Source of the DNA: a virus
Direction: 5' to 3' (one strand)
Length of the DNA: 39,645 bases
IMG/VR virus record: IMGVR_UViG_3300042934_000280
Span: 1-39,645 of that record
Positions 19,408-33,511 of this stretch are shown here, piece after piece. A program made the position numbers and the translations under genes. Positions within the stretch are counted from its first letter, which is position 1; each line of letters opens with the position of its first letter. The notes under the pieces are model-generated. The model did not search any database. It saw only the letters and a program-made list of their open reading frames with translations, and had not been told where the DNA came from.

Positions 19408-20031
19408 CTATAAATAAATTGTTTTGATTTCTGCTTCCATATTCTCATTAAGTTTTTCAAAATATTTATCTCTCTTTTCATATAGATCCAACCTAGCGTT
19501 ATTTATAACTACTTCCATCCCGCTAGATGAAGCATCAATAGTCATCTGAGTATTTGAATACGTAGCTGTTTTTGGTATTAATCCCTCATATTTATTAGTC
19601 ATATCAAGTATTAAATCATAAAGTTCATTGTTTTGCTTACTATGTATAATGCTTCTTATTAACATGATATCATAAAAAATTCTTTCATAAAAATAAATGT
19701 CTCTTCCTCTGTTTTCCATGCTTTCGTATTTTGTTAGTAAAACCATATCAATCAACTTATTCGCTGTATCTTTGACATCAATGTATTGCTGCTTAATCTT
19801 TTCTTCTATAATACGACTATCAAGCATTCTTTTGTTGTATTGAATAGTGAAAAATAATACTCCTGCAGTAACTATAGCTCCTATATATGACCCCATAAAT
19901 GATAGCCACGTTTCTTTGCTGAAATTAACACCGGCAGTATTATATAATCTATTAATGATTAAGCTTATCAGAAGCGGAGTAATCGCTAAAAATACCAATG
20001 TCGTTAAAAACAAGATTTTATATTTTTTCAT
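19408..20031 (-). CDS. Two-span membrane protein with cytoplasmic coiled domain; cargo gene
   Basis: A 207-residue protein. Residues 5-25 and about 45-62 are membrane spans (ILFLTTLVFLAITPLLISLII and FMGSYIGAIVTAGVLFFTI). The rest is a charged helical cytoplasmic domain beginning YNKRMLDSRIIEEKI. The WLSFMGSYIGAIVTAGVLF motif resembles a widespread Firmicutes group of small membrane proteins of unknown function. ATG at 20031 follows GGAGGGG by six bases. It lies between terminators, outside the core operons and in more AT-rich DNA than its neighbours, as accessory genes often do. A superinfection-exclusion or defence role is plausible but not shown. Confidence 0.75.
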   Translation of the reverse strand: MKKYKILFLTTLVFLAITPLLISLIINRLYNTAGVNFSKETWLSFMGSYIGAIVTAGVLFFTIQYNKRMLDSRIIEEKIKQQYIDVKDTANKLIDMVLLTKYESMENRGRDIYFYERIFYDIMLIRSIIHSKQNNELYDLILDMTNKYEGLIPKTATYSNTQMTIDASSSGMEVVINNARLDLYEKRDKYFEKLNENMEAEIKTIYL

Positions 20032-20088
20032 TATATTCCCCTCCAATTTACCCATATACTACCACTTTCTAACATTATTTGCAAGAAT

Positions 20089-20121
20089 TAAAAAGAGCGC
20101 CTATCATAGGATAAACGCTCT
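20089..20121 (-). terminator. Intrinsic terminator upstream of the membrane cargo gene
   Basis: The minus-strand RNA has AGAGCG pairing with CGCUCU (20121-20116 with 20099-20094) enclosing a nested AUCCUAUGAU hairpin, followed by UUUUU. A further small CCTAC/GTAGG hairpin lies beside it. Confidence 0.8.
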
Positions 20122-20177
20122 ACCTACTCTCTCGTAGGCTTTGAATTATTATATGGCAGCTTGCCTAATATTAATTT

Positions 20178-20218
20178 AAAAAAGCACTCATACTTAGTAA
20201 TTTTCTGAATGCCTTTTT
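20178..20218 (-). terminator. Long-arm intrinsic terminator after the structured RNA
   Basis: Minus-strand arms AAAAAGGCAUUC and GAGUGCUUUUUU (20218-20207 with 20189-20178) pair over 12 bp around a 17-base loop, ending in a U-run. It could act in both directions because the arms begin and end in A/T runs. Confidence 0.7.
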
Positions 20219-20368
20219 GGGGAGTATAAGTATTGGGGATCCCATGAGGGGATATCAGCAGCCGGCCTTATCAACCAAACAGCCAACGGAGGTTTTGTTC
20301 AACCTTCCACAGTAATAATACCATAGGGAGAAATACCTTGTAAATTCCGTTTTTATTCCACCATTGTT
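20219..20368 (-). ncRNA. Possible structured RNA at the early/late junction
   Basis: This 150-base stretch follows the ArpU-like gene and contains no open frame of note. The minus-strand RNA can form GGAAGGUU-loop-AACCUCC (one bulge) and AUCCC-CUCAU-GGGAU hairpins and contains GC-rich patches (GGCCGGC) unusual for the surroundings. It runs straight into a terminator. It matches no RNA family known to me by eye. It could be an untranslated trailer, a small RNA or an antitermination element. Confidence 0.4.
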
Positions 20369-20911
20369 TCAAATGAGATCGACTCCATCTACCCCAAATA
20401 ATTGAATACTTACTTCCTTTGTAACTTCATTTACCCACCGGCTTATAGAAGTTTTACTTGAATAATATTCTTTAGCAGCATCATCGTAATTCACCCCTTG
20501 CATAAAACACTTGATAAATACATCATATTTCTCCGGAGTTTCTTTTTGGTTGTACTCCTCCTGAACTAGCTCAAGTGCCCTGTCAATATGTGAAATTACA
20601 ATAAGACTTTTCAATTTACTCCTACGAATACTATTGATATAAATCTCTTCATCATCTGAATATGCAAAAGATTGCTCTTCTAATTGGCTTGCCTCAGATA
20701 TGGCCTCCTCGATACTACACTTGATTTTATCATAATTCTTAAGAAGCATCTTAGTGTTATGTAGTGCCTTACGTTTTTTCTCGCTTCGCTGCTCCTTACT
20801 ATACTCCCTGATAGCCTTTTTAACTGCTTTATCAATTAAATCATCAGCTGTTACTTGATTCACTCTATCACCGTCCTTTCCCTTTCGCTTGATTGTAATG
20901 GTTATATCCAC
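20369..20911 (-). CDS. ArpU-like late transcription regulator (sigma-region-4-type HTH)
   Basis: A 180-residue protein with charged helical N- and middle parts and a C-terminal helix-turn-helix, FMQGVNYDDAAKEYYSSKTSISRWVNEV, resembling the sigma-70 region 4-like domain of ArpU/RinA-type late activators. Its position at the end of the early region, before the packaging genes, fits a late-switch role. The start is GTG at 20911 and overlaps the upstream gene by 44 bases. The ribosome site is weak, so translation may depend on coupling. Confidence 0.7.
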   Translation of the reverse strand: MDITITIKRKGKDGDRVNQVTADDLIDKAVKKAIREYSKEQRSEKKRKALHNTKMLLKNYDKIKCSIEEAISEASQLEEQSFAYSDDEEIYINSIRRSKLKSLIVISHIDRALELVQEEYNQKETPEKYDVFIKCFMQGVNYDDAAKEYYSSKTSISRWVNEVTKEVSIQLFGVDGVDLI

Positions 20912-21038
20912 AGCAATACTTTGTCTTACCGTCCTTACCGATAAACTTCCAAGTATAATCAGATCTGGTCATATGCATGGAGAATACAACCTGCTTACCA
21001 CATACCGGGCACTTTTCAGTATCCATCTTGCCCCACAT
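20868..21038 (-). CDS. Small zinc-ribbon protein
   Basis: A 56-residue protein with CPVC near the start and YCCGYNHYN near the end, giving a likely four-ligand zinc site. ATG at 21038 (MWGKMD) is chosen because GGAAG stands five bases before it. The longer open frame upstream overlaps another gene and has no ribosome site. Its gene overlaps the ArpU-like gene. Small zinc ribbons of this kind are common next to phage regulators; no specific function is known. Confidence 0.65.
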   Translation of the reverse strand: MWGKMDTEKCPVCGKQVVFSMHMTRSDYTWKFIGKDGKTKYCCGYNHYNQAKGKGR

Positions 21039-21081
21039 TTTAACTTCCGAAGGACTAAGCTCTTTTACAGTACCGGCGAAA

Positions 21082-21711
21082 CTATTTGCTTTTGCTTTGC
21101 CTGGCTGACACCTTCGTATCAAGAAAGACATCATTCTTTTTCGGTATCGCCCGGCTGATTTTATGCTTTGCCATGAAGTTGTATATATCAGACTTCTTAA
21201 CACCGTACTTATCTGCAATATCGCCAACCTTGTTTGACTCGTCTTTGCAAAGCTTAGTGATCTCATCGGTATAATGTTCTAATATCTCAGCCTTAGTTTC
21301 TTCCTTAACCGGCTTGTCCTCAATCTTCTTAGCCTCTTCCTTCAGTATGTTGGTCAGCTTCTCTTCAACCGGATCAGGTTCCTTATGCTCCTTTGCGCAA
21401 TTAACCATTTCCTTGACCGCTGCTTCAAATACCGGATTAATAGTAGCAGGCTTGCGAACTCCCATAAGTTTCTCCAGCTCTGCGGTTTTCTCGTTTTTAG
21501 CTTGAATGACAGCAACAACAGCGTTCTCTCTAAGCTCCTGCATCTTCTCCGGGGACAGGATTGTTATATAAGTTGCCCCATTGGGCCTTGAAGTAAAACA
21601 GATGTCCTCACCTTTGGATTTTTCAATCAAGTCCTCTATGACCTCCAGTTCCCTACTCAGATGATTACCTTTAATAATATGTTCATTCCATTGATCTAAT
21701 AGATTATTCAT
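21082..21711 (-). CDS. Charged helical protein with C-terminal HTH-like end
   Basis: A 209-residue protein starting MNNLLDQWNEHIIKG, preceded by GGGAGG. A short beta segment (ATYITILSPEKMQEL) is followed by a long charged coiled region. The C-terminal segment VGDIADKYGVKKSDIYNFMAKHKI looks like a helix-turn-helix. No named family was recognised with confidence. The start overlaps the upstream 59-codon gene by eight bases, so they are probably translated together. It may be a DNA-binding early protein. Confidence 0.7.
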   Translation of the reverse strand: MNNLLDQWNEHIIKGNHLSRELEVIEDLIEKSKGEDICFTSRPNGATYITILSPEKMQELRENAVVAVIQAKNEKTAELEKLMGVRKPATINPVFEAAVKEMVNCAKEHKEPDPVEEKLTNILKEEAKKIEDKPVKEETKAEILEHYTDEITKLCKDESNKVGDIADKYGVKKSDIYNFMAKHKISRAIPKKNDVFLDTKVSARQSKSK

Positions 21712-21883
21712 CCTCTTCTTCCTCCCATTCTCCATTTTCACAAACTTCAGCCGGTGACTCTATCCGGCTCCTCTCAACAAAGCAATCTGTCGACAGCTGT
21801 ACTGTTATATCCAAAGCATCTAATAGTCCATCAAGCTCGTATACTTCCTCATCGATATCAACTGTGTAAATTATCCTCTGCAT
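21704..21883 (-). CDS. Small acidic protein
   Basis: A 59-residue protein, MQRIIYTVDIDEEVYELDGL and onward, ending in the very acidic EWEEEEDE. AAAGGGG stands nine bases before the ATG. It overlaps its neighbours on both sides (26 bases upstream, 8 downstream), typical of tightly packed early genes. No domain was recognised; a beta-hairpin followed by an acidic tail could mimic nucleic acid, but this is speculation. Confidence 0.65.
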   Translation of the reverse strand: MQRIIYTVDIDEEVYELDGLLDALDITVQLSTDCFVERSRIESPAEVCENGEWEEEEDE

Positions 21884-21965
21884 CCTTCTTCGCCCCTTTC
21901 TCTATGGCTTTTTCTATAAAGCATAGTTCCAAGAATATCAAAACTAACATAAATCCTGTAAACAT
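21858..21965 (-). CDS. 35-residue single-span membrane peptide
   Basis: The frame begins M-F-T-G-F-M-L-V-L-I-F-L-E-L, a membrane span, and then turns into a charged tail EKAIEKGAKKDAED. GGGAG precedes the ATG. It overlaps the mini zinc ribbon upstream and the acidic protein downstream. Function is unknown; translation is supported by the ribosome site and the tiled overlaps. Confidence 0.5.
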   Translation of the reverse strand: MFTGFMLVLIFLELCFIEKAIEKGAKKDAEDNLHS

Positions 21966-22021
21966 TCCTTACTCCCTTCTGGGATGACTACTCCACATGA
22001 TACACATCGGTTTGCATCCAT
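21944..22021 (-). CDS. 25-residue mini zinc-ribbon peptide
   Basis: The frame reads M-D-A-N-R-C-V-S-C-G-V-V-I-P-E-G, then CLQDLC. CxxCG-xxIPEG-C-C is the exact pattern of phage and clostridial mini zinc ribbons. AAAGGA lies about ten bases before the start. It overlaps the 35-residue peptide gene by 22 bases. A competing 23-codon frame over the same bases has no ribosome site. Confidence 0.5.
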   Translation of the reverse strand: MDANRCVSCGVVIPEGSKECLQDLC

Positions 22022-22055
22022 CGGTTACGTTTCCTTTCATGAGACAAATTTTAGT

Positions 22056-22586
22056 TTACCGAGCAAGTGCTTCCTTCGCTATTTCTCTTGATAAAAACAC
22101 CGTTTTTCCAAATTCATCAATTCCACAACAATTTTCAATGCCAGCTCCGCAGTAGTGGATTTTAAGTTCATCTGAATATTCATCCTCATCATCTTCATCT
22201 ACCGCTCCCATACTGTATCCTGTAACCATACATGGTATCACCTTGCCAAAATCGATATCATATACCGTGTCACCAATCTTGCACGGAATCTTGATAAGCA
22301 ATTCATGTGCTTCAACCATTCTATCTACTTTCCACTTATCATAAAGTTTTGCATCGTCATTCGTTAGGATACGGAATCCCTTCGTCATTTCTCCATCTTG
22401 GGTTTCGATTTGTTTTAAGTACATATCCATTAATTCAAATGCAGTAAGATTAGAGCCGAATTCCTTAGTAATCCTGTCTTCTAATTCCTCGTACATTGCA
22501 AGCTTCTCTACAATCTTAATTTCATCCTTTGGCGAATAAAGAATATTTTCTTTATCCATTGGACTTCTCATTGTTAATCTTTCCAT
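22056..22586 (-). CDS. Phage protein of a common clostridial early family
   Basis: A 176-residue protein starting MERLTMRSPMDKENILY. It has an N-terminal helical region (KLAMYEELEDRITKEFG) and a C-terminal beta domain with IPCKIGDTVYDIDFGKVIPC, a pattern frequent in clostridial phage early regions. Function is unknown. ATG at 22586 has GGAG at six bases; the earlier ATG at 22598 lacks one. Confidence 0.75.
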   Translation of the reverse strand: MERLTMRSPMDKENILYSPKDEIKIVEKLAMYEELEDRITKEFGSNLTAFELMDMYLKQIETQDGEMTKGFRILTNDDAKLYDKWKVDRMVEAHELLIKIPCKIGDTVYDIDFGKVIPCMVTGYSMGAVDEDDEDEYSDELKIHYCGAGIENCCGIDEFGKTVFLSREIAKEALAR

Positions 22587-22640
22587 CCTATTCTCCATTT
22601 CTGCTCTAATGAGCTAAATCTTAATTCCCCTTACTTACCA

Positions 22641-22669
22641 TTGCAAAACCCAAACAAACGTTCTATAAT
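22641..22669 (+). promoter_or_regulatory. Strong promoter for the isolated plus-strand gene
   Basis: TTGCAA (22641-22646) is followed after exactly 17 bases by TATAAT (22664-22669). GAGGTG and an ATG follow about 20 bases later. This is one of the best consensus promoters in the window. Confidence 0.85.
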
Positions 22670-22698
22670 AATTTTATTAACTTTATGAGGTGAACTCT

Positions 22699-22980
22699 AT
22701 GCCATTCCTAAAACCCGACCATAGTCCAATAATCAGACATCCCCAAGGTCATCCTGTAGCTGTGTTAGCAGCCTTTAATACTGTTGGTGACCTTATACCT
22801 CGCTATTTCTGTGTTGAGGACGATAACTGCGAGCTGTTCAAGTTTAAGGTCGATGCTATCAATGCTATCAAGGATCAGCACATGGTTAAGATTTTTCACT
22901 GCACCTATACCGCTTATGGCTTAAGAAACAGCATAGTGTTATGCTTTGATGTCCTCAACTGTAAGTGGGTAATAGGTTAA
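22699..22980 (+). CDS. Isolated plus-strand small protein, probably expressed in the lysogen
   Basis: A 93-residue protein, MPFLKPDHSPIIRHPQGHPV, with GDLIPRYFCVEDDNCELFKFKVDAI and the C-terminal WVIG. It resembles small hypothetical proteins common in clostridial genomes; no function is known. ATG at 22699 follows GAGGTG by six bases and a near-consensus promoter. It is opposed to all flanking early genes and its end overlaps the convergent gene at 22977 by four bases. Expression independent of the lytic programme is inferred. Confidence 0.8.
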   Translation: MPFLKPDHSPIIRHPQGHPVAVLAAFNTVGDLIPRYFCVEDDNCELFKFKVDAINAIKDQHMVKIFHCTYTAYGLRNSIVLCFDVLNCKWVIG

Positions 22981-23360
22981 TCTCCGATCGTTATCTCTAT
23001 TCCAACATCTTTCCGGATCTTATCTATGTACTCTTGAAGGATGTCCATGGACCTGTCATTGTTTACGGCTTTGTATACATTAGCATCAAATGCGGCTTTA
23101 TACTTATGCATCTGGCTCCGGCTGAAACAAAATTCATCCATAAGCGTTACCAGGCTGATCGCTATTGCAACCTCCGTAGCTCTGACATGTGCTTTATAGG
23201 ATGCATCCTTAATCTCCTGCTGGGTAAGATTGAGTGATATTCCAGAGATGTTGCGATAGCTAATTTCCTTCTCCAGAGCTTGGATACCACCTTCCTTAAC
23301 GATGCGCAATGCCATAGCCATTCCTTCGTTTCGACCGGTCATCAGGTCTGATACTTTCAT
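22977..23360 (-). CDS. Small helical early protein
   Basis: A 127-residue protein starting MKVSDLMTGRNEGMAMALRI. It is helical throughout (HVRATEVAIAISLVTLMDEF). GAGAGGG lies close before the ATG, which overlaps the preceding stop as ATGA. I recall similar genes in clostridial prophages without function. The earlier open frame up to 23393 belongs to a different gene. Confidence 0.75.
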   Translation of the reverse strand: MKVSDLMTGRNEGMAMALRIVKEGGIQALEKEISYRNISGISLNLTQQEIKDASYKAHVRATEVAIAISLVTLMDEFCFSRSQMHKYKAAFDANVYKAVNNDRSMDILQEYIDKIRKDVGIEITIGD

Positions 23361-23506
23361 TGGAGCCCTCTCTTCCAGTGCATGCAATTGCACCTGTTTT
23401 TATTCAAGTTAACATTGGTATATAACACTATGCACCAGACAACTCTATACCATTTGTCTCTTTTGTGTGGTTCACAATGGATGCAATTTCTACATGTTCT
23501 CTTCAT
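23357..23506 (-). CDS. 49-residue cysteine-rich protein
   Basis: The frame begins M-K-R-T-C-R-N-C-I-H-C-E-P-H and ends with C-N-C-M-H, suggesting one zinc site from the two Cys clusters. GAGG precedes the ATG by nine bases. Its stop overlaps the next start as ATGA and it lies just after the methylase gene, so it is part of the early operon. Function unknown. Confidence 0.6.
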   Translation of the reverse strand: MKRTCRNCIHCEPHKRDKWYRVVWCIVLYTNVNLNKNRCNCMHWKRGLQ

Positions 23507-23519
23507 TGATACCATCCTC

Positions 23520-24290
23520 TCAATAATTCATCCATAATACTTCTGTTCTTGGAAGTGAGTTCTCAGCTCTGGCCGGAGTGCTTATTTTTCTCCATCCTGA
23601 CAGATATGAATTATATAAATCACTATCATATCCGGATAACATCACTGGACCAGTATGTAACAGCAATACATTTAACATATCCACATGATCCTGATCGGAC
23701 ATCTCATGCCGATACTGCTTCCTGGTACGAGTTGATAATACATAAGGTGGATCTGCATAGATTAAAACGTTATCATGATTAAATGCCTTGATCAGCTCTA
23801 CCGCAGGTTTATGTTCTATCTGTACCATTTTCAACCGGTGTGCTACATTCGTGATCACATCCGGAAGGTCATTCCAGTACCGGACCGCATATGCTGCCTC
23901 TCGACCGTATACATCTTTCTTCCAACCGCATTTCTCACAGAGCCGGAAACCATGACCCATTCCGGACCGTATAAGGAAATTCTTTGCTCTCTCGATATCT
24001 GATAGCTCATCCAAGTTTTCTGGAAAGGCTTCATTGTATTCCTGTCTGGCATATGGGGTATAAACAATCAGTTCTATCAACTCGTTCTTCTTCTCCCTAA
24101 TCACTCTGAAGAGATTCACCACGTCATCGTCCAAATCATTGATAGTCTCAATCTTGGATGGTTCTTTGTTAAGTAATACCGCAATACCTCCGGCATACGG
24201 TTCCAGGTAACTGTGGTGCTTTGGCATCTGGTCTATAATCCACGGAGCTATACGCTGCTTACTCCCGGGATATCGTAATAAAGTTCTCAT
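23520..24290 (-). CDS. DNA adenine methylase (Dam/D12 class)
   Basis: A 256-residue methyltransferase that should transfer a methyl group from S-adenosylmethionine to N6 of adenine. The N-terminal LLRYPGSKQRIAPWI, motif I LEPYAGGIAV and catalytic motif IV ADPPY match the D12 class, and the C-terminus ends LWMNY. GATC is the usual target of this class, but the specificity here is not proven. There is no restriction partner. Possible roles are protection from host restriction or control of replication and packaging. The ATG overlaps the preceding stop; AAGGAGG lies upstream. Confidence 0.92.
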   Translation of the reverse strand: MRTLLRYPGSKQRIAPWIIDQMPKHHSYLEPYAGGIAVLLNKEPSKIETINDLDDDVVNLFRVIREKKNELIELIVYTPYARQEYNEAFPENLDELSDIERAKNFLIRSGMGHGFRLCEKCGWKKDVYGREAAYAVRYWNDLPDVITNVAHRLKMVQIEHKPAVELIKAFNHDNVLIYADPPYVLSTRTRKQYRHEMSDQDHVDMLNVLLLHTGPVMLSGYDSDLYNSYLSGWRKISTPARAENSLPRTEVLWMNY

Positions 24291-24532
24291 ATCAATATTG
24301 CCTCCTTGTATCTCTGAATCCTCTTATGTACCGCATCCTTAGATATCCCGAACATTTCACCAATTTCCTTATGAGTCATTCCCTGTTGCTTCATGCGGAT
24401 CATTTCATCGATACCTTCACCCTTCGGTAAATTCTTACGTAGCCTTCCATCGATCATAAATTCTGTACTACGGTCAATTGTGAAATCCGGACGAAGGATG
24501 CAGATCAGTAATGCATAATAGTTTTCTTTCAT
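24287..24532 (-). CDS. Small helix-turn-helix protein
   Basis: An 81-residue protein with a C-terminal helix-turn-helix, IRMKQQGMTHKEIGEMFGISKDAVHKRIQRY, of the resolvase/sigma-region-4 kind. The N-terminus (YYALLICILRPDF) is short and hydrophobic. The gene overlaps both neighbours by four bases. It is probably a DNA-binding regulator or accessory to the methylase; this is inferred. Confidence 0.75.
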   Translation of the reverse strand: MKENYYALLICILRPDFTIDRSTEFMIDGRLRKNLPKGEGIDEMIRMKQQGMTHKEIGEMFGISKDAVHKRIQRYKEAILI

Positions 24533-24966
24533 GACAGCATCACCTGCAAATTCTTCTTTAACTTCTCCTTACGAACGGAATTCTGCTTGAATTCCCTACT
24601 ATATGAAATCTCAAGCCCTTTCAAGTGGTTATATTCTCTCCTCGCTTCTTTAAGGTTCAGTACTGCCAGCTTATGCGCCTGGGTTCCTCTCATTCTGTTA
24701 GCGGCCGTTTCCATGACTTTGATTCTGACTTCTGCTTCCTTTACCCTCGGGTGATTGTCTATGTACTTGTTGGCGTATTCCTTCGCCAGTTCCTCACACT
24801 GGGGGATCTCCTGTTTCATCCACCCTGTAATCTCGTCAATAACCTCCTGGCTGTGATCAGCCATTACTACCACCTTAAGCAGCTTCTTTATGTCTGCCTG
24901 TGATGCCGGAAAGAAGTGCTCCGGATAGATCGTCATGACCCCACGGTTATACTTTATTGCTATCAC
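24529..24966 (-). CDS. Helical early protein of unknown function
   Basis: A 145-residue charged helical protein, GTG start at 24966 with GGGGG six bases upstream. The segment YPEHFFPASQADIKKLLKVV and the long basic helix LNLKEARREYNHLKGLEISY are its main features. It overlaps the helicase gene and the HTH gene by four bases each. It may be a helicase partner, based only on linkage. Confidence 0.7.
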   Translation of the reverse strand: MIAIKYNRGVMTIYPEHFFPASQADIKKLLKVVVMADHSQEVIDEITGWMKQEIPQCEELAKEYANKYIDNHPRVKEAEVRIKVMETAANRMRGTQAHKLAVLNLKEARREYNHLKGLEISYSREFKQNSVRKEKLKKNLQVMLS

Positions 24967-26321
24967 TTGTAACCCCCTATTCTTGCCTTAACTGCCTCCA
25001 GTAAGGCTGCTTGTCCTGTTTCCTTTCTATCCAGGGCTTTCATGACATCCTCATCCACCGTTCCTTCGGTGATCAGATGATGCACGATAACACTCATTGT
25101 CTGTCCCTGCCTATCCAGTCTTGCATTTGCCTGTTGATATAGTTCCAAGCTCCAAGTTAATCCGAACCATACTATTATGTGCCCACCGGCTTGTATGTTT
25201 AAGCCATGGCCAACACTTGCTGGATGTGCTAACAGCAGCCTTATCTTACCTTCATTCCAATCGGATATATCCTTTGATGTTTCCAACGTCCTCGGTTCAA
25301 GGCCCTTGAAGCGTTCCATCAGCCGGTTGTAATCATGTTTGAAATTATAGAATACCAACACCGGCTCCTGGTTGAATTCAAGAATCTCCTCCAGGGCTTC
25401 CAACTTCCCATCATGAATATGTATTACATCCCTTTCAGAATTGTAGACGGATCCGTTTGCCATCTGTAAAAGCTTATTGGTTAAAGTGGCAGCAGTCAGT
25501 GCTGTTATCTCTTCGCCGTCAACCTGCAGTATCAATTCCTTTTCCAGCTCCTCATAAAGGTGCTGGGCTTTTGGCTCCATGGTCACATACACGTTATTAT
25601 TAATTCTTTCCGGAAGATCTAAGTAATCTCTCGCGTCCATACTAATGCAGATATCCTTAATCTTATTCTGTATTGCTTCCTCTGCCATGTCTTTTAAATC
25701 CCAGTCAAAGACGGTATAGCCATTTCTTCTCCCGGGTGTAAAATATCTGTCCCGGTATCCGGTTATGGTTTTCCCTAAACGCTCTCCACGGTCAAGTAAA
25801 TACATCTGTGACCAGAGATCCAGGTAACCATTAGGAGTAGGTGTACCAGTAAGACCTATCATTCGGTTAATCAATGGCGTTACTTTTTTTAATTCCCTGA
25901 AGCGCTGAGACTTATTAGACTTGAAGCTGCTTAATTCATCAATCACTACTGTGTCAAAAGGCCAACTGTTTTTATACAGATCTACTAGCCATACAACATT
26001 CTCACGGTTGATCACATAAATATCAGCAGCGGCATTCAATGCTTCAAGTCTCTGCCTCTGGGTCCCAAGTACCTTAGATATTCTAAGATGTTTCAAATGG
26101 TCCCACTTATCAATCTCCCTAATCCAGGTGTCTTCCGCTACACGCTTTGGTGCTATGACAAGAACCCTCGATACCTCGAAGCTGTTAAACATCAATTCGT
26201 CTATGGCTGTAAGAGTACACACAGTCTTTCCCAATCCCATATCAAGCAGAAGGCCTACTTTAGGTAGTTCCAATATTTTATTGATTGTGTGTTTCTGATA
26301 GGGGTACGGTTTGAATTTCAT
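24963..26321 (-). CDS. SNF2-family DNA helicase/translocase
   Basis: A 452-residue superfamily 2 ATPase. Motifs seen are the Q-like YPYQKHTINKIL, motif I LDMGLGKT (residues 26-33), motif II IDELSSFK, motif III GLTGTPTPN, and motif VI QANARLDRQGQ. It is the compact SNF2-type helicase regularly linked to VRR-NUC and VirE in clostridial phages and probably acts in replication restart or recombination. AAGGAG precedes the ATG. It overlaps VRR-NUC by 44 bases. Confidence 0.92.
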   Translation of the reverse strand: MKFKPYPYQKHTINKILELPKVGLLLDMGLGKTVCTLTAIDELMFNSFEVSRVLVIAPKRVAEDTWIREIDKWDHLKHLRISKVLGTQRQRLEALNAAADIYVINRENVVWLVDLYKNSWPFDTVVIDELSSFKSNKSQRFRELKKVTPLINRMIGLTGTPTPNGYLDLWSQMYLLDRGERLGKTITGYRDRYFTPGRRNGYTVFDWDLKDMAEEAIQNKIKDICISMDARDYLDLPERINNNVYVTMEPKAQHLYEELEKELILQVDGEEITALTAATLTNKLLQMANGSVYNSERDVIHIHDGKLEALEEILEFNQEPVLVFYNFKHDYNRLMERFKGLEPRTLETSKDISDWNEGKIRLLLAHPASVGHGLNIQAGGHIIVWFGLTWSLELYQQANARLDRQGQTMSVIVHHLITEGTVDEDVMKALDRKETGQAALLEAVKARIGGYK

Positions 26322-26598
26322 CCTTGATCTCCTTTACTAAGTCCTTTGCCTGCTCCATGCCATACACTGTTTTAAATGTTGCTCCCATCTGAAGGAACTG
26401 CTCACGCTGCCACATCTGCACCCCTGATAGTTTTCCTATAATTCTTTTCAGCTCTACGAAGTAAACCTTCCCTCCTGGAAGCAGATAAATCCGGTCAGGC
26501 ACACCAGGGTTTCCGGGACTTACGAACTTGTAAGACTTACATCCCAACTTTTTAATCTGGGAGTTCAACCATTCTTCTATTTTTGACTCTCTTTCCAT
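26278..26598 (-). CDS. VRR-NUC domain nuclease
   Basis: A 106-residue stand-alone nuclease of the PD-(D/E)XK superfamily. The key motif PGVPDRIYL followed by KVYFVELK gives the catalytic Asp and Glu-x-Lys. Stand-alone VRR-NUC proteins cut branched DNA such as Holliday junctions. AAGGAGT precedes the ATG. The upstream leader contains two of the GTTAC repeats, so its expression could be linked to whatever binds there. Confidence 0.92.
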   Translation of the reverse strand: MERESKIEEWLNSQIKKLGCKSYKFVSPGNPGVPDRIYLLPGGKVYFVELKRIIGKLSGVQMWQREQFLQMGATFKTVYGMEQAKDLVKEIKDEIQTVPLSETHNQ

Positions 26599-26612
26599 GC
26601 TTTTTACTCCTT

Positions 26613-26860
26613 GTAACTTGTAACTGATTCGCGCGTGTATATACGAATATGTGCGTTTTATGCGAAAAAACTACAAATACTATATAAAATTAATTTAATA
26701 TAGATATATTAGTTACATAGTTACAATTGCTGTTTTTGTTAGTGTTTTCAAGGCTTTCAAGTGTAACTAAGTTAGTTACAAATTGGTTACTAGTTACACA
26801 TTTTTGTAACTAGCTGGTCATTTGTAACTAATATTTTTTGCTAGTTACAATATTAGTTAC
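26613..26860. repeat. Cluster of twelve GTTAC/GTAAC iterons: candidate replication origin
   Basis: Twelve GTTAC or GTAAC motifs occur in 248 bases, starting at 26613, 26620, 26712, 26720, 26763, 26775, 26786, 26793, 26806, 26824, 26844 and 26856, with extended consensus TAGTTACA in both orientations. A nearly pure A/T stretch lies at about 26672-26712. The cluster fills the only gene-free gap in the replication module, between VRR-NUC and the PrimPol-helicase gene. It could be an origin or an operator array. Confidence 0.7.
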
Positions 26861-29265
26861 ACTTTTTCATATCCTTTTGCGACTCCATAGATCCTAAATC
26901 TCATGCTGCTTTCCGTCTTTTCCCATCCATCCAGCTTTGCCATAATGGCAGCTATCTCATTTGAGTCCTGCCTTTTCAAGCTGCCTTTGTCCTTTCCAAA
27001 GCATTCACACCAAATCTCCGCTATGCAGACATTCTTACGTTCGTTTGTGCCTTCCTTTGAATTAGTTTCAAATTCATCGCCATTTATATAAACTCTGCGT
27101 TCAAAGATATTCATGTCATCCCAGTTATCTGGAAGCCTCTTTTCTAAGAACTCACGGATGATACCCTCACGTTCATCACTCTCCATGGCCCTTTTCTGTT
27201 CTTTCTCTGCCATGGCCGACAACCTTTCACTGAGGTAGATTGATTCATGTTTCTTATAATAATTTAAAGCCTCAGCCCATAACTGCAGTAGTTCTTCTTT
27301 GGTTATACCCCAGATGTTTTTTGACCCTGCGCCCGGAACCATCACCGGCCAGAATCTTCTATTGCCTGTTGTATCCCTGAGGTATCCATTTTCTGCATTT
27401 GTGGTACCTATGAATACGCATTGTCGTAAATGCGGAGAAGTTCTTCTTCCGAAGCTTGCCCTGTATATATCATTCTGCTTCGAAATGAAACCTTTGAGTG
27501 TATCAACCTCTGCTTTTCTTAGCCCCGCCAATTCCCCTATCTCCAAGATCCAATAACCCTGAAGCTTTTCAGCTGCTGTCTTATCTTTCGTATCAGAAAG
27601 ATGTAAGCTGTCAGAAAACCATTCTCCTCCTAATTTGGCTATCAATGTACTCTTGCCTATGCCCTGAGGGCCATTTAAGACAAGCATAGTATCATACTTA
27701 CAACCAGGGTTGAGCACTCTTGCGATAGCTCCCACTAATGTCTTCCTGGTAACCGCTTTCACATATTCATTATCATCAGCTCCCAAGTACTCAATCAGCA
27801 GCATGTCTATTCTTTCTATTCCGTCCCACTCCGGGAGGGTGTCAAGAAACTCCCTGATAGGATGATAGGATCTGTCATCTGCAATCTTGGTTACTGCTAT
27901 TTCATAATTCCTAGCTGAGAAGGCTCCATATGCTAGATCGATGTATGAAATAAGTTGCGCATCATCTGCATCCCTCCAGAACTTGCTGGGGTGTTTCCAC
28001 GGTACTTCTCCTTTGATCTCCATTCCATCACTTAGTTGATTAAAAACAATTGACTTAAGGTTCTGGTCATTTCTTAATATAAGAAGCAGATTCCCGAGAG
28101 TGTTCTCCAACTCCCCTCGTTTGTTGTATTCAAGCTTTGCTAACCAGGTTGTATCATCTATAACTTCAAACTCATCCTTGGCGCTCTCCAGCTTTTCTTG
28201 CCCCATGGTAACCTTTGTAGCATCATCTTTTTGAACTAGTTCTACCATCGCCTTGTAGCTTGGCAACTCTGTTGTTTTAACATCAGCTGTAGCTTCTTCA
28301 TCCAATTCTGCAAACTTATGTAATCTTACTAGGTCAAAGGCATTACAGAGCTTTCCGCTTGCTGGATCAGTCGCATGGTTGGAATATGCGAATTTCTCAT
28401 CTTCGTATACAACCAGACCCGCTGCAGTACTTCCACCTGTGTAGGTGTACCGGTTCGGCATATCACATTTGATGTATGCCTCTGGTAAAAATGTTTCTAT
28501 TGCCTCTATAATAGTGTAGGTTCTGCAGAAAGCTCCAATTAGTCCCTGCTTCTCGCACGGATCTCCCTGCTTGTCTGCCAGCTTCTTTCTAGTCTTCACA
28601 GCTCTTGAGCTCTCTGGCCAATAGCTTGTATCCGTCCAGTCCGTGTATTTCTTTAGTGTCTTATCTGCAGACAGAAATTGATTATCCAGGTAATTATAAT
28701 AATAGTATCCATCAGCACTCACACTTGGCCAGTACATCAACCGAGAAGCTTGATAGGTGGTATCATCAAAATAATCAATTCCTATTTCCTCCGCTATCTT
28801 TCTGCTGATAGCTTCGTATTCATCTGGAGTAACCTCTCTGTCTATTGGGATTAATAATCTATACCTTGGCGCCTCCGGGCAATGTTTATGAGTGGAATAA
28901 ACGCAGCAGGCATAATCTGATAAAAGCTCCAAACCCTCAAAGAAGTCTACCGGCGCAAAGTCTAAATCTAAAGTAAGTATCTGTCTGGATGCCACGCTGC
29001 CGGCTTTTCTACTGCCACCGGTTAAGCTTCCGCCTACATAGCCTCCTACATCCTTAATCTGGTCCTGTTCATTTTTGGCCATCTTCTTGTACTCTTCAAA
29101 AGTCTCATGAGTTATAACAGGGCTTTTCAGCTTAGCCACCAGATTTGACCAGAGGATCTTCTTATTCTTCCAGCTCATCTCAAATCGGTTCTTACCGGTT
29201 GATATAGAAACCTGGCCGTCATATTTAAGCTTTAATTTATAATCCTCCAAGTTGGCCACATTCAT
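26857..29265 (-). CDS. Primase-helicase: N-terminal PrimPol, C-terminal VirE-type ATPase
   Basis: An 802-residue replication protein. The N-terminal part has archaeo-eukaryotic primase features: DLD at residues 100-102, STHKH at 124-128 and RYRLLIP at 134-140. The C-terminal VirE-family helicase domain has Walker A GPQGIGKS at 532-539, a Walker B-like ILEIGEL and the GTTNAENGYLRDTTGNRRFW sensor region. Such fusions start and unwind at phage origins. The C-terminal coding end touches the iteron cluster, consistent with local initiation. Confidence 0.9.
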   Translation of the reverse strand: MNVANLEDYKLKLKYDGQVSISTGKNRFEMSWKNKKILWSNLVAKLKSPVITHETFEEYKKMAKNEQDQIKDVGGYVGGSLTGGSRKAGSVASRQILTLDLDFAPVDFFEGLELLSDYACCVYSTHKHCPEAPRYRLLIPIDREVTPDEYEAISRKIAEEIGIDYFDDTTYQASRLMYWPSVSADGYYYYNYLDNQFLSADKTLKKYTDWTDTSYWPESSRAVKTRKKLADKQGDPCEKQGLIGAFCRTYTIIEAIETFLPEAYIKCDMPNRYTYTGGSTAAGLVVYEDEKFAYSNHATDPASGKLCNAFDLVRLHKFAELDEEATADVKTTELPSYKAMVELVQKDDATKVTMGQEKLESAKDEFEVIDDTTWLAKLEYNKRGELENTLGNLLLILRNDQNLKSIVFNQLSDGMEIKGEVPWKHPSKFWRDADDAQLISYIDLAYGAFSARNYEIAVTKIADDRSYHPIREFLDTLPEWDGIERIDMLLIEYLGADDNEYVKAVTRKTLVGAIARVLNPGCKYDTMLVLNGPQGIGKSTLIAKLGGEWFSDSLHLSDTKDKTAAEKLQGYWILEIGELAGLRKAEVDTLKGFISKQNDIYRASFGRRTSPHLRQCVFIGTTNAENGYLRDTTGNRRFWPVMVPGAGSKNIWGITKEELLQLWAEALNYYKKHESIYLSERLSAMAEKEQKRAMESDEREGIIREFLEKRLPDNWDDMNIFERRVYINGDEFETNSKEGTNERKNVCIAEIWCECFGKDKGSLKRQDSNEIAAIMAKLDGWEKTESSMRFRIYGVAKGYEKV

Positions 29266-29277
29266 CTATACTTCCTC

Positions 29278-31266
29278 CTAATCCTTCTTATAGTAGACAG
29301 TTTCATAGGTATCACCTCTTAGTGGTAATCCTGGAGCCCATGTTATATCTTTCCCCATAAGCTCTGTAATCGTTTTAGCTGCATGTGTATCCACGTTCGG
29401 AACGTCTACCACCATTTCATCATGTATATGCATTACGATGTTATATCCAGCTCTGTCAACACGCTTCATAGCAATTGCTAAACAATCCCTCGCAGCCCCT
29501 TGGACCAAATTCTCCACTAGCTTTCCGCCATATGTCTCAAGTCTTCCCCATGCTTTAGTTTCTTGATTTACACCGGCATAGGTAATCATTTCTTTACCCT
29601 TAGGGTTTGGTTCTATCATTGCATCGTAGTAAGCAAGCTTTCTGCCTCCTGGGAGCTTGATAAAGAGGATTTTATTAATGTAGCTAAACTCTAACCCGTG
29701 CTGTATCTTTACCGTCCTGTGTTCTTTAATTGCGGTCTTAGCTGCATTCTCTGTGATATACCAGAACTTTACTATCTTTGAGTTGGCCTCTCTCCAGGAG
29801 TTAACCAACATAGGAAGTTCTGATTCAGATAATCCCATATCGAGCGCTCCCATCTTTATGAGAGCTCCAACGCTTCCTTGATAGCCAAGTGCTAGCTCTG
29901 CAACCTTACCCTTCTTTCTTAATTCTCCACCTTTCCCTATTTGTTCAATTGGTACGTGGAACATCTGGGAAGCAGAAGCTTCATATATCTTGCCATGTGT
30001 TCGGAATACTTCAAGCCGCCATTCCTCACCCGCGAACCAACTAATGACTCTTGCCTCAATTGCTGAGAAATCACTTACGACAAAACGGCATCCTTCCGAG
30101 GCTATAAAAGCGGTTCTTACTAGCTGTGAAAATACAAAAGGTGTTTCTCCAAACATAAGCTCCAAAGTTTCAAAATCTTTCTCTGCTACCAGTTCTCTTG
30201 CAAGATCAATGTCCGGAATTTTATTCTGAGGAAGGTTGTGCACCTGGACTATACGACCAGCCCAACGACCTGTCCTATTAGCGCCATAGAACTGTAGGAT
30301 TCCCCTCAGTCTTCCGTCATTACAGATGGCCTTTTCCATCGCCACATATTTGGCTGTAGAAGTCTTTGACATGGCTTGTCTAATTTCTAATACTCTAATA
30401 GCTTTTTCATCCGTACAATCGTGGATTAGAGCTTTAACGCTATCCTTAGTGAGGCTATCAACATCAGTTCCTAATTTATCACTTAACCACTTCTTTAACT
30501 GTGCCGGGCTGTTTGGGTTCTTAAGCCCCGTCAAAGCTGTAGCTTCCTTTGATATCTCAGCTTGGTACTGGGTATCGTACTGAATGATTCCCTCAGCAAA
30601 ATCTAGATCTAAACAAATACCCCTATCATTCATCCGCTGATCAAAGTTCCACAGCTCCTGTTCATCCTCTGTAATTGGGTAAGGCTTGAGTCTATCAAGT
30701 ATGGCCTGTTCTGCCACAACATCCTGCTTGCAATATTCCCCGAAGAGATGCCATTTTTCTGTATCGTGTTCCGGATAGTTTCTGGTCCGTCCACCATTTT
30801 TCTGGGTGGGCTTACAAGGTTTACAGAAATAATCAATAAGCGATTTACCGATCTTGTCTTTCTGCTTATCCTGTTGGATTGCTAATGCCGCACCAACATC
30901 ACCAAGACTTCTTGGTAAACCTAACGTAGCGGCATAAACAGCTGTGCATCTCCACTGCTCCGGAGGCATAGCCTTATTGAAATACTTAGCAAGTGCTGTC
31001 CTCTCGAAATTAGCGTTAAACGCGGTCTTGATAACTTCCGGATTGTTTAGGCCTTCCCAGAAGTCTGGGTAACACGTTTCAAGGAAATCTACTGCAGCTG
31101 TTTCTTCTTCAAAGCCATGTATATCGATCAACTGCACTTCTTCTTTATCAAACTTATACGCAATGAGCAATATCTCGAAACCAGGGGCATCTACATATGC
31201 ATATGCCCCTGTTTCTCTGATATCAACACTGCTATAGGTTTCAATATCTATAGCTAATGTTTTCAT
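29278..31266 (-). CDS. Family A DNA polymerase with 3'-5' exonuclease
   Basis: A 662-residue phage polymerase. The exonuclease Exo I motif LAIDIET has D7 and E9. Polymerase motif A is DFSAIEARVISWF, motif B has KGKVAELALGYQGSVGAL, and motif C is HDE at 615-617. It lacks the 5' nuclease domain of cellular Pol I. It should replicate the phage genome together with the neighbouring primase-helicase. It ends 12 bases before the primase gene. Confidence 0.95.
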   Translation of the reverse strand: MKTLAIDIETYSSVDIRETGAYAYVDAPGFEILLIAYKFDKEEVQLIDIHGFEEETAAVDFLETCYPDFWEGLNNPEVIKTAFNANFERTALAKYFNKAMPPEQWRCTAVYAATLGLPRSLGDVGAALAIQQDKQKDKIGKSLIDYFCKPCKPTQKNGGRTRNYPEHDTEKWHLFGEYCKQDVVAEQAILDRLKPYPITEDEQELWNFDQRMNDRGICLDLDFAEGIIQYDTQYQAEISKEATALTGLKNPNSPAQLKKWLSDKLGTDVDSLTKDSVKALIHDCTDEKAIRVLEIRQAMSKTSTAKYVAMEKAICNDGRLRGILQFYGANRTGRWAGRIVQVHNLPQNKIPDIDLARELVAEKDFETLELMFGETPFVFSQLVRTAFIASEGCRFVVSDFSAIEARVISWFAGEEWRLEVFRTHGKIYEASASQMFHVPIEQIGKGGELRKKGKVAELALGYQGSVGALIKMGALDMGLSESELPMLVNSWREANSKIVKFWYITENAAKTAIKEHRTVKIQHGLEFSYINKILFIKLPGGRKLAYYDAMIEPNPKGKEMITYAGVNQETKAWGRLETYGGKLVENLVQGAARDCLAIAMKRVDRAGYNIVMHIHDEMVVDVPNVDTHAAKTITELMGKDITWAPGLPLRGDTYETVYYKKD

Positions 31267-31270
31267 AAGC

Positions 31271-31840
31271 CTAACCCAACATATCGTCTACATCGTTGCC
31301 TTCGTAGTCTTCTGCAAAATCATCTTCTGCAGACCGTCTAGCACCACCAAGAGGTTCACCATCGGTCAATTTTTGAATATTATTTAATCCAACTGCAACA
31401 CCTTTAGATCCATTAGAGTTGTAAGGGAAGAAGTTGATTGAAGCTCTACCATAGCAACCACTGTATACTTCTGTAGGATCAAGGATCTCGTTCCGGAAGC
31501 CATCAATGATGCCAGGCTTCTGATTGCTGTTTGCATTAAGAAAGAACATACCAACGTACTCCTCAGCTTCTTCGGCTCTTTCTGCATCACCATCTCTTAA
31601 TGGAAGCTTAAGACCTGCCGGAAGTTTACCGCCCCACTTATCAGCTATACCCTGCTTCTTAGCTGCTTCAATGGCTGCTTTGATCTTGGTAAGTGTATCT
31701 TTATCGGACTTGGGAATAAGTAGGCAGATACTGAACTTCTCTTCCTGCCCAGGCTGAAATGCTCTGCCCTTAAAAATATTTACATATGAAAATCTAACTT
31801 TACCTGTTACTACTTTTGTTACCTGTGCTTCTTTACTCAT
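31271..31840 (-). CDS. DUF2815 single-stranded DNA-binding protein
   Basis: A 189-residue protein matching DUF2815: TGKVRFSYVNIFKGRAF at the start, FSICLLIPKSDKDTL, and the acidic tail AEDDFAEDYEGNDVDDMLG, which resembles the protein-interaction tail of ssDNA-binding proteins. The family is regarded as phage SSB and is regularly paired with this polymerase type. It ends four bases before the polymerase gene. Confidence 0.9.
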   Translation of the reverse strand: MSKEAQVTKVVTGKVRFSYVNIFKGRAFQPGQEEKFSICLLIPKSDKDTLTKIKAAIEAAKKQGIADKWGGKLPAGLKLPLRDGDAERAEEAEEYVGMFFLNANSNQKPGIIDGFRNEILDPTEVYSGCYGRASINFFPYNSNGSKGVAVGLNNIQKLTDGEPLGGARRSAEDDFAEDYEGNDVDDMLG

Positions 31841-31853
31841 AATTTTATTTCTC

Positions 31854-32126
31854 CTATTCTTTGATTAAAATTTTTATGAAGTTATGGATCCCTCTCATAT
31901 CGGATCCGAGTATCTTACCTGTTCCTGCCCAGAACTGCTGTAGATTACCTTTTCTATCCCAAGCATGTATGTGTCCTATCGCTGGGTTCTTAATTCGGTA
32001 TTCAATGTTATTTGTACTGAGCTGCTTGATAGCAAATTCTACGCGATCTGGATTTTTGGCGACTCTTTCATCATGATTATGTTTTGCCAGATCTTCGAGA
32101 TAATCCCAAAATTCATCCTTTGCCAT
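31854..32126 (-). CDS. Small conserved phage protein
   Basis: A 90-residue protein, MAKDEFWDYLEDLAKHNHDER, with a C-terminal alpha/beta part containing HIHAWDRKGNLQQFWAGTGKI. I recognise this as a recurrent small protein of clostridial and streptococcal replication modules, without an assigned role. Histidine, tryptophan and tyrosine near the middle might form a nucleic-acid surface; this is inference. Confidence 0.8.
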   Translation of the reverse strand: MAKDEFWDYLEDLAKHNHDERVAKNPDRVEFAIKQLSTNNIEYRIKNPAIGHIHAWDRKGNLQQFWAGTGKILGSDMRGIHNFIKILIKE

Positions 32127-32141
32127 ATTGCCTCCAATCCA

Positions 32142-32345
32142 TTAATGCTGAAATACGTATCCTGGCTTAATATCCATGTTGCTATCAGCACTAAACCATA
32201 AATCTTTTACTTGACCTGGACCACCATCATCCCAATATTCCACTGTGAAAATATCGTGGACTTTACCAGGAGTAGACCAATCATCTGGCTGAGTAAACTG
32301 TTTCTTTTCTATTACCTTGGTAACATGTCCATCAATCAAATTCAT
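32142..32345 (-). CDS. Small conserved beta-rich protein
   Basis: A 67-residue protein starting MNLIDGHVTKVIEKKQF, with FTVEYWDDGGPGQVKDLWF. Short proteins with this opening are common in phages and host genomes; function unknown. It overlaps the DUF2800 gene by four bases. Confidence 0.75.
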   Translation of the reverse strand: MNLIDGHVTKVIEKKQFTQPDDWSTPGKVHDIFTVEYWDDGGPGQVKDLWFSADSNMDIKPGYVFQH

Positions 32346-33511
32346 TCAGATACCTCTGTGAAATCATCTTTGGCTGACTGTGTAGAACTGATCTCTGGCC
32401 TCTTGTCCTTTGCATCTACCAAGGTAGGTTTACCCTGAGGTTTCTCTATCAAGCTATCAAGCAGCTCCGTGAATTTCTTTTTACCAATAAGTTTCTCCAT
32501 AGCAGTAATGCCATAAAGTTTCTTCTCAAATAGGACAGCTTCATCATAACCGGCGCCTTTGAGCTTATCAGCAACCTTGATATCATCGGCATACTTACGG
32601 TTGCTTCTTCCTTCTACAAGCTTCCAGCCGTCCCACTTCTTACCGTTAATCGCTTCTGCCAGTGCGTACTCGGTGATATCTGTAACCCAGTTGGCCAGTT
32701 GCTCTGCCTTCCGGAGAACTTCACCAATTTCTTCATCCTGCAGGAGATCCGGAAGACTGAATTCCATCTTTGTAAGTTCCAGGTTGTAATCTACTCTTGC
32801 TCTGCAGATAGCTTTTGCTTTACAGAACTTGCAGTGATCACCAACTACGAAGTTACCTTCACCGGCCATAGCAAGTGCTGCTCTCGGTCTTACTTCGTTT
32901 TCTGCCCAGGTCTTCAGATCTTCAACAGATAATTCCTCTGATGTAGTCATTTCAAGCCTTGGTTGGATAATAGTTGTTTTTACTGTTGAAACATCGTATA
33001 TCATATCAAAGGCTGCCAGAGCTCCTATACCGTACAATCGGAGCTGAGGGTTGTCCTCTGCAGATACACCAACTCCCTTACCATATTTCAAGTCAATAAC
33101 ATGTAACATCTGATCAGCAATAATAACAACATCACCGGTACCGTACCCATCTTCTACATATTCAGAAAAATCAAGTCTCTGTTCGGTTAGAACAATTACA
33201 TCCTTACATCTTGCTTTTGCTTCATTGGTGAACTCCCAGATCTGCCGAACATAATCATCGATGTAATCCTGCATGTCCTGACTGTAATACTGGTTTTTCT
33301 TTAACACTTCAAACTTTTTATTGAATTCTGGTTTCTTCATATTGTGAAGATTGTAATTGATGATCAGCTCTGCCAAGCTGTGGGCGAAGGTTCCTTCGTC
33401 TGCATATGTAGAAGTGCTTTCCGGAAAGTGTTCTTCCAGAGCTACCGATGGAGTACAGGACATCCAACGTTTAGCACCACTGGCAGATAATCGTGCATGG
33501 GTACCTGGCAT
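32342..33511 (-). CDS. DUF2800 nuclease (Cas4/RecB-like PD-(D/E)XK fold)
   Basis: A 389-residue protein. RLSASGAKRWMSC gives an N-terminal Cys, GTGDVVIIADQMLHVIDLKYGKG carries the catalytic Asp and Asp-x-Lys of the PD-(D/E)XK fold, and CKFCKAKAIC gives three further Cys. Together they suggest an iron-sulphur cluster like Cas4/AddB exonucleases. It probably processes DNA ends in phage recombination with the DUF2815 protein. It shares one base with the upstream stop (TAATG). Confidence 0.88.
   Translation of the reverse strand: MPGTHARLSASGAKRWMSCTPSVALEEHFPESTSTYADEGTFAHSLAELIINYNLHNMKKPEFNKKFEVLKKNQYYSQDMQDYIDDYVRQIWEFTNEAKARCKDVIVLTEQRLDFSEYVEDGYGTGDVVIIADQMLHVIDLKYGKGVGVSAEDNPQLRLYGIGALAAFDMIYDVSTVKTTIIQPRLEMTTSEELSVEDLKTWAENEVRPRAALAMAGEGNFVVGDHCKFCKAKAICRARVDYNLELTKMEFSLPDLLQDEEIGEVLRKAEQLANWVTDITEYALAEAINGKKWDGWKLVEGRSNRKYADDIKVADKLKGAGYDEAVLFEKKLYGITAMEKLIGKKKFTELLDSLIEKPQGKPTLVDAKDKRPEISSTQSAKDDFTEVSE

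Follow-up and report, generated by a model that had tools for sequence, protein, structure and literature searches.

How does a tailed phage with a VapE-type primase-helicase start its replication, and which protein recognises the starting point? The question is raised by a virus record of 39,645 bases, analysed here over its whole length and called the window, in which a non-coding gap of about 260 bases lies directly 3' of the primase-helicase gene and before genes for VRR-NUC and SNF2 proteins. The original prediction had read this gap as an iteron origin, with operators as an alternative. We consider it very likely that the gap is the replication origin of the phage and that its iterons are read by the C-terminal winged helix of the phage's own primase-helicase; the conserved repeats and geometry, and the homology of the neighbouring helicase to the SaPI initiator, support the prediction of an origin.

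The phage and its replication module

The window carries portal, terminase, major head and tape measure genes and also encodes a repressor-like HTH protein and a serine recombinase; its source is therefore most likely a temperate tailed phage. The replication module reads leftwards and comprises DUF2800, an Enc34-type SSB, an A-family polymerase, the VapE-type primase-helicase, a VRR-NUC-like protein and SNF2 (Table 1). A Pfam scan of the VRR-NUC-like protein at 0.001 gave no match. Residues D100, D102 and H126 of the primase-helicase are invariant, and we take them to resemble the AEP primase motif. The adjacent polymerase and SSB genes (29278-31840) recall the polymerase-SSB primase pairs of staphylococcal elements; A-family polymerase-SSB pairs are treated as putative primases in the available sections of PMC10061031, and the window has such a pair by gene neighbourhood. 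Elsewhere in the window, a 128-aa ORF at 34474-34860 matches phrog_4681, a PHROG family named antitoxin (4e-30). A megablast search with positions 20000-32000 returned no match among phage records.

Table 1. Coordinates of the proposed origin and of the neighbouring genes in the window
Feature	Position	Strand	Basis
Non-coding gap separating primase-helicase and VRR-NUC genes, proposed as replication origin	26599..26856	.	ORF list, repeats, duplex stability
Distal iteron pair AAGTTACA / CAGTTACA, VRR-NUC side of AT block, opposed to doublet	26612..26626	-	
Alternating purine-pyrimidine tract of 16 nt; the relatives' box in degenerate form	26630..26645	.	
AT block, 92% A+T, presumed unwinding element	26675..26712	.	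within least stable 50 bp of window
Iteron doublet, two TAGTTACA copies in direct repeat at 8 bp, adjoining AT block; TGTAACTATGTAACTA on primase strand	26710..26725	+	
Primase-side iteron array, 8 cores, both orientations	26762..26861	.	last core holds primase-helicase stop codon
VapE-type primase-helicase (802 aa), proposed initiator	26857..29265	-	Pfam VapE-like_dom 1e-76; phrog_256; PDB 7pds
C-terminal winged-helix domain, proposed iteron reader	26860..27060 (about residues 736-802)	-	model, fold match, column coupling
VRR-NUC-like endonuclease	26278..26598	-	phrog_93 4e-22, phrog_5702; relatives annotated or matched as VRR-NUC
SNF2-type helicase	24963..26321	-	Pfam SNF2-rel_dom 2e-24
A-family DNA polymerase	29278..31266	-	Pfam DNA_pol_A 1e-24
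Enc34-type ssDNA-binding protein	31271..31840	-	Pfam Enc34_ssDNA-bd 6e-70

An iteron array around an AT block

The sequence features on which the prediction was built were all confirmed. By the ORF list, the gap is the sole one longer than 15 bp within 24963-33511, in keeping with the claim that it is unique in the replication module. Exactly 12 GTTAC/GTAAC cores, the number predicted, occur in 26613-26860 (the gap plus the adjoining stop codon), compared with 0.33 expected per 248 bp; elsewhere in the window, the densest 248 bp hold 4. When the gap was shuffled 2000 times with its dinucleotides preserved, the count averaged 1.44 cores and never exceeded 6. Nine of the cores belong to exact copies of the extended consensus TAGTTACA (six on the plus strand, three on the minus strand), two are the variants AAGTTACA and CAGTTACA, and one (26786-26790) is a core only, so that both orientations are represented as claimed. 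The array does touch the primase-helicase gene, whose TAA stop falls within the last core (26856-26860). The gap also ranks top of the whole window in repeated 7-mer count, with 11 against 5 in the next region.

The near-pure AT stretch was likewise found beside the iterons. Among these, from 26665 onwards, lie the 50 bp with the lowest duplex stability in the entire 39.6 kb. The iterons are split into 10 on the primase side and 2 on the VRR-NUC side; the AT block is therefore flanked, not merely adjoined. An Rfam scan of the gap gave no match, and GC skew along the window showed no switch at the gap, being negative until about 36 kb and tracking gene direction.

Conservation of the gap in relatives

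Relatives were defined as tblastn-confirmed primase-helicase matches, with 80 of 336 genome contigs and 80 of 448 viral contigs kept; two copies of the window (L001 and L002) were excluded from all counts. Protein rows below 60% of the length or with internal stops were left out of the alignments, leaving 161 primase rows and fewer for other proteins. Leaving out weak-motif loci gave a covariation set of 134 of the 161, window included; 119 loci remained once those with an unclear or missing doublet, low A+T or few sites were dropped; and the tree set held 112 loci with a template score of 2.4 or more. Each of these locus filters favours clear iterons.

The neighbourhood is strongly conserved. 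For 152 of the 160 relatives, the sequence continues for 1000 bp beyond the primase; a VRR-NUC-like gene begins within 900 bp in 143 of these, and SNF2 is matched within 2.5 kb in 143 as well. With a median of 255 bp and iteron words that differ between loci, the gap is conserved in length, not in sequence. The word is TGTAACTA in the window, TGTAACCA in two relatives (L003 and L004) and TGTTCCAA and its neighbours in most, with TGTGACAA, GGACAACT and GGTTGCCG as further examples (L127, L112 and L064, respectively); 38 different 8-mers were counted over the 119 loci with a good call, some differing by register alone.

A simple 7-mer count beat shuffles in 93 of 161 gaps (window included), and a weight-matrix search scored above the best shuffle in 149 of 159 relatives, in 133 of them by a margin of 12. 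Compared with the rest of the same locus, the gap had strictly the highest 7-mer count in 86 of 158 cases and lay in the top 2% in 15 more, with 57 in neither class; some relatives have only weak iterons or none. The original prediction had named loss of the repeats in relatives with the same replication genes as evidence against an origin. Such relatives keep them beyond shuffles (the 133 of 159 given above), in other words and with the same geometry, and the origin reading therefore survives this comparison.

A search of viral contigs with the doublet TGTAACYATGTAACYAAT returned 10 contigs, including a close relative of the window (L236), one contig with a VapE-type match (L239) and one with a VapE-type protein and VRR_NUC by Pfam (L232). 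The other seven gave no match to the window's proteins; some carry GTAAC arrays. Four contigs (L230, L234, L237 and L238) have several GTAAC/GTTAC words around a TGTAACCATGTAACCAAT doublet and are without match to the window's replication proteins; these arrays are possibly origins of other replicons.

Conserved geometry and an alternating tract

The relatives share one order of elements: a direct doublet, the AT block, an alternating purine-pyrimidine tract and an opposed iteron. A direct iteron doublet at 8-9 bp is present in 123 of 159 relatives, and the 50 bp that follow are at least 64% A+T in 119 of these 123 loci. Iterons lying 60-130 bp beyond the doublet are almost always opposed to it, with an opposed to same ratio of 126:1 over the 123 loci and 72:1 over 67 non-redundant loci. 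At 80-150 bp before the doublet no preference was seen (169 opposite versus 158 same; 74 versus 95 when non-redundant), while sites nearer before it lean to the opposite orientation. The window follows this plan, with its doublet at 26710-26725 and its opposed pair at 26612-26626.

The alternating tract is itself unusual. The tract in the window is one of two of at least 14 nt in the whole record, and many gaps in the relatives (L003-L162) carry a CG-containing palindrome, TATACGCGCGTATA, between the AT block and the distal iteron. At up to 2 mismatches, this palindrome was found in 77 of 161 gaps, against a fraction printed as 0.0 of 2912 control stretches. Alternating tracts of at least 20 nt occur in 45 of 160 gaps versus 0 of 2878 controls, and those of at least 12 nt in 117 of 160 gaps versus 1.8% of controls. 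Exact copies of the 18-mer were located in 33 viral contigs. The primase lies upstream in 31 of them; another (L193) is cut at the primase position and has VRR-NUC. In the remaining one, a GC-rich contig (L177, 13432-13451), a D5_N/PriCT_1 helicase gene ends about 48 bp before the box, which stands between inverted CGTGGAACGGAT copies and may therefore not be tied to VapE helicases. A box search with CATATACGCGCGTAWAG gave 19 new contigs, of which 14 adjoin the module and 5, with a TAAAG form, do not. Four contigs (L212, L215, L217 and L220) share one identical stretch with the TAAAG box form, away from any primase found. Our guess is that the alternating tract could be structure-prone DNA that helps or stops opening.

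The primase-helicase as putative reader of the iterons

Residues 368-726 of the primase-helicase, its helicase part, match PDB entry 7pds by sequence (E 1.7e-74), an entry titled 'The structure of PriRep1 with dsDNA'. The last 103 residues were modelled with 48 sequences as a winged helix (pLDDT 91), and all six 7pds chains head its list of PDB matches (E 5.7e-5 to 7e-3); the next match has an E value of 2.5e-2, and no other falls below 0.01. A full-length model (pLDDT 86.6, pTM 0.52) has 7pds as its first match, followed by ASFV PrimPol, NrS-1 and the SaPI5 primase-helicase.

Iteron similarity was correlated with protein identity over 134 loci for the primase and fewer for the other proteins, giving a rho of.735 for the primase,.70 for SSB,.65 for SNF2,.57 for PolA and.49 for VRR. 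With VRR held constant, the partial correlation for the primase was.64. Primase columns coupled to variable iteron bases concentrate in residues 736-802 (entropy-corrected p.004 and.0004, kinship ignored), with residues 787, 791, 795, 797, 799 and 772 near the top; for example, every one of the 41 loci that read TC at iteron positions 4-5 has K as residue 787. For these two positions, residues 361-640 also score in the entropy-corrected test. Counts of iteron core changes on trees did not set the primase C-terminus apart, with 29 changes on it versus 29 on VRR over the same 105 loci, and 26 versus 26 for SNF2 over 100 loci. Because the tree count separates neither VRR nor SNF2 from the primase C-terminus, the covariation in these alignments offers moderate support for the primase as the reader.

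Comparison with known origins

In SaPIs the iterons lie immediately after the rep gene and are bound by the C-terminal domain of Rep, and SCCmec Cch2 acts alike, according to the available text of PMC7581432. Every PICI origin, according to the part of PMC6092414 consulted, lies 3' of rep and has two sets of iterons flanking an AT-rich region, an arrangement common to no other known bacterial replicon. The proposed origin in the window has these anatomical features, namely its place 3' of the rep-type gene, two iteron sets and an AT block. The likeness extends to the protein, a homologous primase-helicase (SaPI PriRep1, 7pds) with a matching C-terminal winged helix, and to position, as the gap starts at the stop codon; the iterons lie 10 + 2 around 26675-26712. 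The window differs in being a tailed phage with structural genes, with VRR-NUC and SNF2 next to the gap and a fixed doublet and opposed geometry, and its alternating tract goes without mention in the PICI descriptions available from PMC6092414. We ruled out that the whole element is a PICI. A PICI lacks phage structural genes and measures about 15 kb, whereas this 39.6-kb record encodes portal, terminase, major head and tape measure proteins; the element is therefore a phage and the origin alone is PICI-like.

Similar arrays were found in named phages. Twelve records were chosen for the similarity of their primase, and in 8 of them some non-trivial 7-mer occurs four or more times in the gap (raw count, without shuffles): Gardnerella AB1, C. 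difficile phiCDKH02, Corynebacterium Adelaide, S. aureus SA137, Paenibacillus Ted, Bacteroides Bacuni_F1, S. pyogenes Javan524 and Acutalibacter Fontainebleau. Javan630 is weaker, and Blautia NatCom_27009, Phocaeicola BV57P1 and the satellite Javan30 are ambiguous. Clear arrays of 8 to 10 copies also stand 3' of a separate VapE-type gene in another two streptococcal phages, while the record of the satellite Javan615 ends at its VapE-type gene.

Iteron plasmids and lambda-type origins also have iterons adjoining an AT-rich unwinding element. There a separate initiator recruits the helicase (in iteron plasmids a Rep that recruits DnaB, at origins with DnaA boxes), and the lambda iterons lie inside the initiator gene, whereas the presumed reader in the window is the helicase itself. 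In the record of Streptococcus phage Sfi21, an 'origin of replication, 302 bp non-coding region, phage inhibitory sequence' is annotated immediately after the gene for a Pox_D5 protein, on its 3' side. As in the window, this region follows a primase-type helicase gene directly and has GTTAC-core repeats (AGTAAC/AGTTAC) on both sides of an AT block; the helicase is Pox_D5/DUF5906, not VapE, and the next gene is not annotated as VRR-NUC. No CG palindrome was found in the Sfi21 origin region, and the common GTTAC core may be a coincidence. This region is an origin activated by infection, according to the accessible part of PMC6356513. In SCCmec Cch2, again according to PMC7581432, the C-terminal part of the initiator helicase likewise binds short direct repeats 3' of its gene, with a polymerase partner in the operon. 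By contrast with the window, there are three AAGTG iterons only, and the helicase is of a different family (Primase_Cterm/D5).

Alternative explanations

The repeats could be operators only, through which a phage regulator controls VRR-NUC and SNF2 expression while replication starts elsewhere, as the original prediction allowed. Two iterons adjoin the ribosome-binding region of VRR-NUC and promoter-like matches overlap iterons, but these matches are at chance level (2 found versus 2.1 expected), no other intergenic region in the window contains an exact TAGTTACA, and of 160 relatives only 1 has a homologue of the sigma-like HTH protein encoded downstream. Moreover, the 12-site array surrounds the least stable stretch and the opposed geometry is kept in relatives. 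We regard control of expression as the sole role as very unlikely; the iterons may have a second role as VRR-NUC operators. It is more improbable still that the repeats serve recombination, packaging or partition instead of initiation. The near-constant presence of VRR-NUC and SNF2, both of repair-type families (143 of 152 relatives each), would fit such a function, yet the iterons stand in a fixed relation to the helicase gene and the melting block, and the annotated Sfi21 origin sits in the same place.

A different question is whether the gap is an origin whose iterons are recognised by VRR-NUC, the SNF2 helicase or a host factor, which then recruits the helicase. The VRR and SNF2 trees fit the iteron words as well as the tree of the primase C-terminus does, but VRR identity adds nothing given primase identity (partial correlation -.04), and it is the winged helix of the primase-helicase that matches an initiator. 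In addition, the iterons of Javan551, IPP60 and Sfi21 lie 3' of VapE or D5 genes with no VRR-NUC annotated adjacent. We therefore consider another reader unlikely, and the best reading is a SaPI/PICI-type origin used by a tailed phage, with a fixed opposed geometry and an extra conserved tract.

Under this reading of a SaPI/PICI-type origin, the C-terminal winged helix of the VapE-type primase-helicase would bind the iterons flanking the AT block on either side; being opposed, these sites would place two helicase rings face to face across it. The AT block would then melt and the rings would load and unwind outwards, making replication bidirectional from the gap. Priming might be performed by the fused primase or by the neighbouring polymerase-SSB pair.

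Implications for phage and satellite replication

The literature searched, which took in few subscription papers, names no such origins beside phage VapE genes. Taken together, there is about an even chance that the PICI plan is a general origin class of VapE/D5 tailed phages (at least in Bacillota, Actinomycetota and Bacteroidota), that the iteron word drifts with the winged helix into mutually exclusive replication codes, and that the Z-DNA- or cruciform-prone tract is an extra, so far undescribed part of the origin. An origin and a likely initiator can be assigned to a large group of gut and environmental phages, and the proposal is reducible to one protein and one 260-bp fragment. Many iteron words are paired with one fold, and the recognition code can thus be worked out, while the strongly conserved alternating tract poses a new question. 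The PICI-type plan is apparently common to these phages, which bears on the source of the satellites' replicon.
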